Of a DNA stretch of 64,000 nucleotides, positions 1-50,456 are shown piece by piece; within the stretch, counting starts at the first letter, position 1; each line of letters starts with the position of its first letter. Below the pieces are notes generated by a model. The model was not told the origin of the DNA. It was given only the letters and a program-made list of their open reading frames with translations, and did no database searches. Source of the DNA: Pseudomonas sp. LD120 (GTDB lineage: Bacteria > Pseudomonadota > Gammaproteobacteria > Pseudomonadales > Pseudomonadaceae); the NCBI RefSeq assembly GCF_009861525.1, contig NZ_WVHL01000003.1, positions 62,001 to 126,000 of the forward strand, given 5' to 3'. Position numbers and translations under genes: made by a program.

Positions 1-133
1 CAGGGCTGGGGCGGGCTTAGTCAGTGGCATCTGCAGCGGGGTCTCTAGCGGTAGCAAAGGGGGCGCAATGGTAGCGCAGCCGATGTCGAAGAAACGTCGG
101 CTGCGGGGGCGGCAGCAAGGCTTTTGTATCCGA
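1..133. other. Non-coding stretch with one hairpin
   Basis: I see no gene here. A 9-bp inverted repeat (75-83 against 97-105, arms CGCAGCCGA/TCGGCTGCG) lies just downstream of the stop of the leftward LysE-type gene and could act as its terminator, although no clear T-run follows in that direction. The gene to the left lies outside the window. Confidence 0.4.
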
Positions 134-47032: not shown

Positions 47033-48610
47033 ATGGCCCTCGACATTCACGCCCACCGCATCCTGATCCTCGACTTCGGTTCCCAGTACACCCAACTGAT
47101 CGCCCGCCGCGTGCGCGAGATCGGTGTCTACTGTGAACTGCATCCGTTCGACATGGACGACGAAGCGATCCGCGAATTCGCCCCCAAAGGCGTCATCCTC
47201 GCCGGTGGTCCCGAATCCGTGCACGAAGCCAACAGCCCTCGCTGCCCACAAGCAGTGTTTGACCTGGGCGTACCGGTCTTCGGCATCTGCTACGGCATGC
47301 AGACCATGGCCGAGCAACTGGGCGGCAAGGTTGAAGGTTCCGAACTGCGTGAATTCGGTTATGCCCGGGTTGACGTGGTGGGCAAGAGCCGCCTGCTGGA
47401 CGGCATCGAAGACCACGTCGACGCTGACGGCTTGTTCGGTCTCGACGTGTGGATGAGCCACGGTGACAAGGTCACCAAGATGCCAGAAGACTTCCACATC
47501 CTGGCCAGCACCCCGAGCTGCCCGATTGCCGGCATGTTCAACGACGACCTGCGCTATTACGGCGTGCAGTTCCACCCAGAAGTGACCCACACCAAGCAGG
47601 GCGGTCGTATCCTGTCGCGTTTCATCCTCGATATCTGTGAGTGTGAAGCGCTGTGGACGCCGTCGAAGATCGCTGAAGATGCCATCGCCAACATCCGTGC
47701 ACAAGTCGGCACCGACAACGTCCTGCTGGGCCTGTCCGGTGGCGTCGACTCCTCGGTCGTGGCGGCCCTCCTGCACAAGGCCATCGGCGACCAGCTGACC
47801 TGCGTTTTCGTCGACAACGGCCTGCTGCGCCTGCACGAAGGCGAGCAAGTGATGGCCATGTTCGCTGAGAACATGGGCGTCAAGGTCATCCGCGCCAACG
47901 CCGAGGAGCAGTTCCTCAATAACCTGGCCGGCGAGTCGGACCCCGAGAAGAAGCGTAAGATCATCGGCCGCACCTTCATCGACGTGTTCGATGCCGAATC
48001 CTGCAAGCTGGAAAACATCAAGTTCCTGGCCCAGGGCACCATCTACCCGGACGTTATTGAGTCGGCTGGCGCGAAAAGCGGCAAGGCCCACGTGATCAAG
48101 TCGCACCACAACGTGGGCGGCCTGCCGGAAGAAATGAACCTCAAGCTGGTTGAACCGCTGCGCGAGCTGTTCAAGGACGAAGTCCGCCGTCTGGGCCTGG
48201 AACTGGGCCTGCCGTACGACATGGTCTACCGTCACCCGTTCCCGGGCCCGGGCCTGGGCGTGCGCATCCTCGGTGAAGTGAAGAAGGAATACGCCGACCT
48301 GCTGCGTCGCGCCGACCACATCTTCATCGAAGAACTGCGCAAGGCCGACTGGTACCACAAGGTCAGCCAGGCATTCGTCGTGTTCCAACCCGTGAAATCC
48401 GTCGGCGTGGTCGGCGATGGCCGCCGTTACGCCTGGGTCGTGGCCCTGCGCGCGGTGGAAACCATCGACTTCATGACCGCCCGTTGGGCGCACCTGCCTT
48501 ACGAGCTGCTGGAAACCGTCAGCGGCCGGATCATCAACGAAATCGAAGGCATCTCCCGCGTCACTTACGACGTGTCGAGCAAGCCGCCGGCAACGATCGA
48601 GTGGGAATGA
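47033..48610 (+). CDS. guaA: GMP synthase (glutamine-hydrolysing)
   Basis: The 525-residue enzyme has an N-terminal glutamine amidotransferase ([15 protein letters not shown] with the catalytic Cys; HPEVTHT) and a C-terminal ATP-pyrophosphatase with the P-loop [17 protein letters not shown]. It converts XMP to GMP. Sequence ends PPATIEWE as in the family. Confidence 0.98.
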
Positions 48611-48650
48611 TCGGGGCCGAGTGATCGGCGCTTGATCCACTGGCTTTAAC

Positions 48651-48688
48651 CAATGGCGATCGGGACCTTCGGGGATCGATCGCCATTG
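48651..48688 (+). terminator. Hairpin after guaA
   Basis: CAATGGCGATCG (48651-48662) and CGATCGCCATTG (48677-48688) form a perfect 12-bp stem; the following T-run is weak (TCGTTTCTG). It lies 40 bp after guaA. The rest of 48611-48886 has no gene I can support. Confidence 0.7.
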
Positions 48689-48886
48689 TCGTTTCTGCGG
48701 AGATTGAATCCGTTACACATCGGCATTTGTGTTGCAGAACCTTTAGAAACGCTGCTTTTTCACCTTCCGGCAATATCACGTAAGACATGTTCGGCGCTCT
48801 GCCCCGGGCTTCTCTCTACCCTTGGGTCTCCCCCCGCTGTTTTTGCTGCGGCTTGTTCGTGGCGCGGGTTTGATCGGATTGCATAA

Positions 48887-48923
48887 GGTTGTCAGTTGAC
48901 AACCATGTATGACTGGCGATACT
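48887..48923 (+). promoter_or_regulatory. Palindromic operator over a -35 box
   Basis: GGTTGTCA (48887-48894), two bases, TGACAACC (48897-48904) form a perfect palindrome. The consensus -35 TTGACA (48896-48901) is inside it and a -10-like GATACT (48918-48923) lies 16 bp later, 12 bp before the start of the small gene. A repressor bound here would block the promoter; the HTH protein encoded two genes on is the obvious candidate. Confidence 0.7.
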
Positions 48924-48934
48924 GGAGGCTATGG

Positions 48935-49213
48935 ATGGCTCGTGCAATTCATCCCAAGAAGGACATTGAGATGGCCCTGCGCTACGCCGAATGGCAGGGC
49001 TGGTGCATCGAGGTTGGCGGTGGTCATGCCTGGGGGCGGATCTACTGCCCGTACAACAACGAAGTGTGTCGCTGTGACGAGTTCTGTATCACCAGTGTCT
49101 GGCGTACGCCGAAGAACCCGACCCAGCACGCCCGGGCGCTATGCCGGGTGATCGACAACTGCACCGTGAACCAGATGCGTGGGGCCAAGGCGCCGGCAGC
49201 CCGTCAGGAGTAA
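48935..49213 (+). CDS. Cys-rich HicA-like small protein (candidate toxin)
   Basis: ATG 48935 with GGAGG six bases upstream gives 92 residues. The pattern of an N-terminal helix (KKDIEMALRYAEWQGW), a strand, then GGGHAWGRIYCP resembles the dsRBD-like fold of HicA mRNA interferases, with a His where HicA has its catalytic one. Unlike HicA it has seven cysteines, four in the stretch CPYNNEVCRCDEFC, which might bind a metal. It is followed five bases later by an HTH gene. Function is inferred from layout, not shown. Confidence 0.6.
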   Translation: MARAIHPKKDIEMALRYAEWQGWCIEVGGGHAWGRIYCPYNNEVCRCDEFCITSVWRTPKNPTQHARALCRVIDNCTVNQMRGAKAPAARQE

Positions 49214-49218
49214 GCACC

Positions 49219-49740
49219 ATGGAATACCTGTTCACCCTCAACTATCTGCTGCCGCTGGAGGGCTGTGATCCGCTGCAATTGGTGGAGCGCCTCGGTGCGG
49301 CGGGGTGCACTGACGCCCTGGTCGGCACCGGCCTGGCCGGGCGCCTGGCCCTGGAGTTCAGTCGCGAGGCCGAGAGTGCCGAGGCGGCGCTGCTCAGTGC
49401 CCTGGGGGATATCAAGCGGATCATCCCCGAGGCGCGGCTGGTGGAGGTCAGCCCGGATTTCGTCGGCCTCAGCGAGATCGCCGAGATCGTCGGGGTGTCG
49501 CGGCAGAACATGCGCAAGCTGATGCTCGGCCACGCCGACAGCTTTCCCCTGGCGATCCATGAGGGCAGCACCTCGCTGTGGCATCTGGCGGAGGTCCTGA
49601 GCTGGCTGGACAGCAAGGGCGGCTACCCCCTCAAGCACCCGGTGATCGAGGTGGCGCGGGTGGCACAGCAGGTGAACACCGCCAAGGAGTCGCAGCGCAT
49701 CGGCCCCCTCAGTGGTGAACTGTTGGCCCTGTTGGGCTGA
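49219..49740 (+). CDS. HTH DNA-binding partner protein (candidate antitoxin/regulator)
   Basis: ATG 49219 with CAGGAG upstream; 173 residues. Residues about 1-78 form an alpha/beta domain that is not recognised; residues about 83-103 (GLSEIAEIVGVSRQNMRKLML) are a helix-turn-helix. It is coupled to the Cys-rich gene before it, and a palindrome overlies their promoter, so autoregulation is likely. Antitoxins of HicB type also end in an HTH, but similarity outside that part is weak. Confidence 0.7.
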   Translation: MEYLFTLNYLLPLEGCDPLQLVERLGAAGCTDALVGTGLAGRLALEFSREAESAEAALLSALGDIKRIIPEARLVEVSPDFVGLSEIAEIVGVSRQNMRKLMLGHADSFPLAIHEGSTSLWHLAEVLSWLDSKGGYPLKHPVIEVARVAQQVNTAKESQRIGPLSGELLALLG

Positions 49741-49751
49741 CGGGGCAGGGC

Positions 49752-50456
49752 TTAGCGCCGGGCCACGTCGGAGAAGTAGAACTTGTCCAGGGTGTGCCGT
49801 GATTCGGTGTATTCGAACTGCCGCCCGTCCTGCAGAAAGGTCTGGTTGCTCACCACGATCACATGACTCTGGCCGTCCAGGTCGAGCAACTGCTGGTCGT
49901 CCTTGCTTCGCGGACTGGCCTCGATGGTGCGCTGGGCATAGCTGATGTTCAGTTGCAGGGTCTGTTCGATGTAGGCGTAGATCGAATGCTCAGCGATCTC
50001 TCGGTCCAGCCCCGGAATCAGCTCGGCGACGAAATGGTTGATGTCGAGAATCACCCGCTTGCCGTCGATTCGCCGCACGCGCTTGATGCGGGTGATCAGG
50101 CTGCCTTCTTGCGCCTGCAGGTGATTGAGCAGCGCGCCTTGCAGGGGGAACTGGCTGAACTCCACCACCTCGGTGCTGACGTCATCCCCCAGGCGCGGAT
50201 AGGTTTCCTGGAAGCTGACGATGCCGCCCAGCTGAAACTCGATGGGATTGGGCGAGAGCACGAAGGTGCCCTTGCCATGGATCTTCTGCGCGAAGCCGCG
50301 CTCCTGCAGCAGTTCGATGGCCTTGCGCACGGTGCCGCGGCTGGCCTGGTAGCTGTCCATCAGTTCGCTTTCCGAAGGCAGCCGGGCGCCACGCTCAAGA
50401 CGTTCGGTGGTGATGCTGGCAAGCAGATCGCTGTAGATCTGGTTGTATTTGCTCAT
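49752..50456 (-). CDS. treR: Trehalose operon repressor TreR
   Basis: The 234-residue GntR/HutC-type regulator has an N-terminal winged HTH (about 5-70, RLPSESELMDSYQASRGTVRKAIELL) and a UTRA ligand domain. TreR proteins bind trehalose-6-phosphate. It is divergent from treP; two operator-like palindromes lie in between at 50590-50633. Confidence 0.95.
   Translation of the reverse strand: MSKYNQIYSDLLASITTERLERGARLPSESELMDSYQASRGTVRKAIELLQERGFAQKIHGKGTFVLSPNPIEFQLGGIVSFQETYPRLGDDVSTEVVEFSQFPLQGALLNHLQAQEGSLITRIKRVRRIDGKRVILDINHFVAELIPGLDREIAEHSIYAYIEQTLQLNISYAQRTIEASPRSKDDQQLLDLDGQSHVIVVSNQTFLQDGRQFEYTESRHTLDKFYFSDVARR

Follow-up and report, generated by a model that had tools for sequence, protein, structure and literature searches.

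The stretch analysed here, called the window, comprises 64,000 nt of contig NZ_WVHL01000003.1 of Pseudomonas sp. LD120. There is a two-gene unit in it, genes A and B, preceded by a palindrome that overlaps the -35 box of its promoter (Table 1). The palindrome, GGTTGTCA-GT-TGACAACC (GGTTGTCAGTTGACAACC), is a perfect 8+2+8 repeat, as described in an earlier note on this DNA. A search of 48600-49800 gave one promoter-like site, with 10 of 12 matches, against a mean of 0.2 in shuffled sequences. The usual transcription start would fall near 48930, past a Shine-Dalgarno-like GGAGG, and the message of A from this promoter would be nearly leaderless. Although this GGAGG follows the -10 box and precedes the expected start, TGGAG is the majority sequence among relatives. 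Gene B is preceded by its own GGAG. A nearly leaderless A message together with this GGAG could tip expression towards B, the balance required of a toxin-first operon. Two perfect 8+2+8 palindromes occur in the window, where about one is expected (64000/4^8), and the palindrome taken alone is not significant. Its significance comes from the conservation of its core at the loci of relatives, not from this count.

Table 1. Features of the palindrome-A-B locus and its flanks (positions in the window)
Feature	Position	Strand	Basis or remark
Palindrome, perfect 8+2+8	48887..48904		predicted operator of B
-35 box TTGACA, within the palindrome's right half	48896..48901	+	promoter search
-10 box GATACT, 16 bp spacer from -35	48918..48923	+	promoter search
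GGAGG, Shine-Dalgarno-like, after the -10 box and before the expected transcription start	48924..48928	+	sequence reading
Gene A, 92 aa, PDC-M06A, predicted HicA-like fold	48935..49213	+	open reading frame (ORF) list, PADLOC model
Codon of His31 in G-G-H, candidate catalytic residue	49025..49027	+	conservation in 30/30 chosen diverse A
Codons 38-51, Cys cluster C-X6-C-X-C-X3-C	49046..49087	+	predicted zinc site jointly with Cys76 (49160-49162)
Gene B, 173 aa, PDC-M06B	49219..49740	+	ORF list, PADLOC model
B residues 1-82, predicted ferredoxin-like (Lrp/RAM-like) domain	49219..49464	+	structure/fold prediction
B residues 84-104, predicted helix-turn-helix	49468..49530	+	structure prediction, PHROG match, helix comparison
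Presumed guaA, site beside which many relatives have the module	47033..48610	+	ORF list, loci of relatives
Presumed GntR/TreR-like regulator beside trehalose genes, other flank of the pair, convergent	49752..50456	-	ORF list, treR loci

The homologue search, which reaches only relatives sharing exact words, yielded 2119 B and 75 A proteins. The loci selected through B are the best 80 of 245 confirmed; the window is among the 55 selected through A, in which one place appears twice. An A sequence lies immediately 5' of B on the same strand in 78 of the 80 B-selected loci, and B immediately 3' of A in 53 of the 55 A-selected loci, both misses being among the weakest A matches. The gene-neighbourhood comparison that the earlier note had suggested thus shows A and B to be one co-conserved two-gene unit. 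A is present in 50 of 298 Pseudomonas genomes and in 25 of 398 genomes drawn from the phylum (own genome included), and B in 60 of the 298, some merely as N-terminal fragments or weak helix-turn-helix matches. In IMG/VR one B locus was found, and no A relative when searched by A's own patterns. In the window's clade, A (over its first 80 codons) has a ratio of nonsynonymous to synonymous substitution rates (dN/dS) of 0.082 and B one of 0.077; the ranges in other groups are 0.04-0.15 and 0.09-0.10, respectively. Purifying selection acts on A and B in the clade of the window, which gave no integrase match.

In 73 of the 80 loci the 480 bp 5' of B contain the exact core GTTGTC-N4-GACAAC. Among the other seven, five have changed bases, one has Ns at this place (L062) and one has an assembly gap that shifts B (L017). 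Over all 133 upstream regions the exact core is present in 115; TTGACA is retained in 110 of these 115, with an xATACT-like -10 box mostly 16-18 bp away (the commonest class). Conservation extends to plasmids of distant hosts: the 18-mer is identical on a plasmid of the cyanobacterium Gloeothece (GGTTGTCAgtTGACAACC), a Sagittula plasmid copy reads TTGTCA-ct-TGACAA, and a Janthinobacterium plasmid copy has a diverged long palindrome ahead of a broken A. In the bacterium's own 6.67 Mb genome the core GTTGTCANNTGACAAC occurs at this one place only, allowing up to 1 mismatch. A variant operator, GTTGAC-N4-GTYAAC, is found in 7 of 133 loci, and phage SSU5 carries the same variant (GTTGACTCAAGTTAAC, read by eye). 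Where the variant occurs the helix of B reads [LIV][ST][RK][QA]A[IV].., and with the main core it reads RQ[NA]MR[KQ]; the helix could be read in 6 of the 7 variant loci and 108 of 114 main-core loci, the variant pattern was set after looking, and the lineages are not independent. Twelve loci were counted as lacking an operator in this comparison, two of which (L017 and L043) do have it, outside the stretch searched. Site and helix could have diverged jointly, possibly in one split in a common ancestor, not in many events. This co-difference is the best evidence for the prediction that B reads the palindrome. The comparison supports the palindrome as a conserved promoter element that varies where the helix-turn-helix of B varies, as an operator of B would; its predicted role is read from sequence.

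Protein A has seven Cys, at 24, 38, 45, 47, 51, 69 and 76, with the dense stretch CPYNNEVCRCDEFC that the earlier note had pointed out. It matches the PADLOC model PDC-M06A over nearly its full length (154.3 bits). Its predicted secondary structure is H-E-E-E-H (alpha-beta-beta-beta-alpha), the strand order of HicA. Fold searches aligned A to the HicA chains 5yrz, 6g26 and 6hpb over 54-59 of 57-60 residues, weakly and tied with unrelated folds; four HicA-named viral models, somewhat clearer than these chains, stand among the best 50 matches listed. His31, Thr58, Pro59 and Cys76 are present in all 30 chosen diverse A sequences and Cys38 in 29, and Cys38 in 167 of 170 parsed distinct A proteins (11 unparsed). 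His31 may correspond to His23 of EcHicA, judged solely from the aligned range (10..76 to 2..58). Seven of the 30 sequences lack Cys45 and each of them has a His in the loop; in distant members Cys45 and Cys51 are replaced by His. Because Cys is exchanged for His, the cluster suggests a metal site with four Cys/His positions, holding zinc, rather than a redox switch.

Protein B matches PDC-M06B over nearly its full length (247 bits). No Pfam family was found for it at E<=1, HicB included, nor any NCBIfam family above the cut-off, and the single match in a sequence search of the PDB was an insignificant one to a designed protein. Its N-terminal domain aligns to ferredoxin-like folds, while the helices beyond residue 82 were barely probed by this search. 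B is thus predicted to combine a ferredoxin-like domain with a helix-turn-helix rather than to be a HicB; the N-terminal domain that the earlier note had left unrecognised next to the helix-turn-helix receives a predicted fold. Matches to the N-terminal domain alone, without the helix-turn-helix part, occur at L033 (6733-7339, in tandem) and in genomes G125, G282, G232, G252 and G297.

The earlier note had offered two readings, a metal-binding variant of a toxin-antitoxin system and a redox or metal sensor pair. In the second, the Cys of A would sense oxidants or a metal and signal to B, which would regulate the operon. The dense conserved Cys of A and a helix-turn-helix partner with a conserved operator-like site agree with this, but the Cys-to-His exchanges keep a metal site and not a disulfide switch, and a regulon is not visible, given the single core in the genome. 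We consider a sensor pair very unlikely. The metal-site appearance of the cluster stands from the first proposal; a HicB-type partner was not found.

The toxin-antitoxin reading is supported by an asymmetry of loss. Full-length B occurs at 54 loci in 53 of the 298 Pseudomonas genomes, and 7 of these loci have no working A: it is absent or a remnant in G267, G045 and G181, broken by frame changes in G239, G281 and G117, and broken by an early stop in G265. Conversely, a full-length B accompanies A in every one of the 50 genomes with A. A is absent or broken in nine of the 80 B-selected loci (L013, L020, L043, L049, L072, L073, L078, L080 and L081), and in L013 and L043 A is gone while the palindrome is kept directly before B. 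An apparent counter-example, L017, with an intact A and an interrupted B, was rejected, as the interruption is an assembly gap of Ns within B. The stops reported in B of G181 and G025 are natural gene ends, not breaks.

We therefore favour, with a probability of about 0.5, a toxin-antitoxin-like module in which A is a HicA-like, zinc-stabilised, RNA-cleaving toxin and B an unrelated, autorepressing antitoxin. A dimer of B would shut down the shared promoter by covering the palindrome together with the -35 box, and B would also bind and neutralise A. With falling B, A would act as a HicA-like RNase held by zinc at four Cys/His residues, cut RNA using His31 and arrest growth. In guaA islands the module beside the integrase would stabilise the island, and on islands and plasmids cells keeping the element would be favoured. 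We infer all of these steps beyond the conservation of the operator. The sequence kinship of A to HicA is weak and weighs against this proposal. No Pfam family was found for A at E<=1, HicA (PF07927) included, no NCBIfam family above the cut-off and nothing in a sequence search of the PDB, and the best PHROG is a family of unknown function. Against the HicA profile A scored 22.0 in one direction and 18.4, with another alignment, in reverse, where 30 column shuffles reached at most 14.2; this match is too weak for membership in the HicA family. The HicA-like pattern of the earlier note thus stands in the predicted strand order and the invariant His, but not as a family membership in Pfam or NCBIfam.

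In MqsRA the zinc-binding member is the antitoxin, whereas here zinc is predicted in the toxin-like A. A toxin-first operon is a likeness between the two systems. The likeness to HicAB is broader: the toxin-like gene comes first, its small product has a predicted alpha-beta-beta-beta-alpha order in which a conserved His follows the first strand, a DNA-binding partner comes second and an inverted repeat lies in the promoter (toxin order, partner and repeat of HicAB as given in an excerpt of PMC11594946). The differences lie in A, which is without a HicA sequence-family match and has a Cys/His-rich loop between strands 2 and 3, and in B, where a predicted ferredoxin-like domain with a helix-turn-helix replaces the partial RNase H fold of HicB. 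In the comparison with HicA and HicB folds that the earlier note proposed, the predicted strand order of A fits HicA, the alignments to HicA chains are weak, and B gave no Pfam match to HicB.

The gene that we take to be guaA lies within the fetched DNA in 62 of the 80 loci. In 30 of the 80 the next gene upstream encodes a full-length integrase in the same orientation and stops a short way before the palindrome, and two of these integrases, when scanned, have the Pfam Phage_integrase and arm-binding domains of tyrosine integrases. There is no trace of this integrase at E 0.01 in the fetched DNA of 35 loci. The window has none at E 0.01 either, and its gap from guaA to A gives only chance-level matches (E 0.85 or more); its pair may be a retained remnant between guaA and treR. 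In three loci (L003, L005 and L008) guaA and the palindrome are 1303 bp apart, where about 330 bp is usual, and the gap of L003 contains a 294-aa ORF unlike the integrase of the other loci. We compared 25 other Pseudomonas treR loci, 1.5 kb each. In L211, L212 and L214 guaA is about 80-100 bp from treR with nothing between, in L223 it is about 590 bp away and the pair is absent, in L228 and L229 the pair is present, and in the other 19 guaA is not within 1.5 kb. The pair is thus missing from some otherwise matching guaA-treR sites. It also lies between transfer genes on a Rhodobacterales conjugative plasmid, on cyanobacterial plasmids and in phage SSU5. Among 72,556 plasmid records, SSU5-type A relatives are found in 226 and B in 281, mostly in Enterobacteriaceae and mostly diverged. 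With B outnumbering A, some of these records may have B alone. Beyond what the earlier note had seen, the pair is a module of mobile elements (chromosomal islands, conjugative plasmids and phage-plasmids) that commonly lies behind an integrase at the guaA site and matches PDC-M06.

This setting raises another explanation, that B is a regulator of the AlpA/excisionase type acting on excision, on expression of the integrase or on superinfection, with A as a zinc-binding partner or co-regulator of B instead of a toxin. The best PHROG of B is 2620, 'excisionase and transcriptional regulator' (E 1.5e-19, yet without a Pfam match), B of SSU5 is annotated as AlpA-like, and the same-strand integrase directly upstream would suit such a role, as would the predicted helix-turn-helix. 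B differs from AlpA/excisionase-like regulators in its N-terminal ferredoxin-like domain and near-constant partner A, and the integrase is often absent, as in the 35 loci without a trace. Moreover, the stretches read of the conjugative plasmid and SSU5 show the pair with no integrase nearby, and in the window's clade purifying selection maintains A and B in the absence of one. We regard a control module as possible, but on the unlikely side.

The palindrome is longer beside the integrase. Past the 6+4+6 core it extends by a mean of 4.8 pairs with a full-length integrase upstream (36 loci), 4.7 with a partial one (6 loci) and 1.6 without (69 loci); for full-length versus none the Mann-Whitney p is 1e-10, kinship ignored. 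The outer pairs vary (AT, TA, GC, CG), yet 122 of 150 cells in 30 distinct rows are paired, where 5000 shuffles reached at most 85. Without the integrase there is slight outer pairing (112 of 305 cells; shuffle mean 83.6, maximum 111). The stem starts 5 nt past the integrase stop in L022 (5658-5700; -26.5 kcal/mol, z -4.5) and 3 nt past it in L042 (5657-5700; -35.1 kcal/mol, z -7.9), while the palindrome of the window folds no better than many shuffles (z -1.1, 29/200). Since the variable arms remain paired and are long chiefly beside the integrase, we read the inner core as operator-like and the outer arms as resembling an RNA hairpin. An intrinsic terminator was rejected because, by eye, the T tract is absent after the stem in L022 and L042, which leaves a proposed role of the hairpin at the end of the integrase mRNA or as an attenuator. 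Symmetric divergence of the outer contacts of B is another explanation for the covariation of the arms.

Both genes match, in adjacent positions, the component models of PDC-M06, an uncharacterised phage-defence candidate of PADLOC. PDC-M06 is a label without a mechanism, and in the literature searched by full text neither it nor PDC-M06A or PDC-M06B is named in any paper. The pair could accordingly be an anti-phage defence system, probably abortive, with A as an effector set free by phage interference with B. From 25 of the 30 integrase loci we took the downstream ORFs of 170 aa or more, some of them mechanical calls; 24 of these 25 loci yielded 88 proteins. GajA, PD-Lambda-3, AbiLi, PtuA, JAB, E1-E2 and AriA of PADLOC are each matched by 2-3 of the 88 (among the best 25 of 245 matched models). 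Conjugation proteins make up a few of the 88. In S. maltophilia, guaA is described as flanking a defence island in an excerpt of PMC11680222. This is guilt by association, however, as the pair is tied to the island integrase and hence lies near defence genes whatever its own role, and phage SSU5 itself carries the pair. We consider a defence system quite unlikely.

The pair is widespread; it heads defence islands and is carried by phage-plasmids. A toxin-antitoxin function, if correct, would account for the maintenance of guaA islands and for the survival of the pair after their loss. It would also bring in a zinc-bound HicA-like toxin paired with a new type of antitoxin and settle the PADLOC candidate. 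A wider proposal, which we hold to be unlikely as a whole, is a new toxin-antitoxin superfamily of Proteobacteria and Cyanobacteria, with a zinc-stabilised HicA-like RNase, a ferredoxin-helix-turn-helix antitoxin and an operator lasting across phyla, which in guaA islands would have grown into a hairpin ending the integrase message and so couple mobility to toxin expression.

Elsewhere in the window, at 2016-2219, a C4 antisense RNA and an a1/b1 target element match Rfam (RF01695 and RF03163), which suggests that the window's start is a P1/P4-like phage or satellite region.
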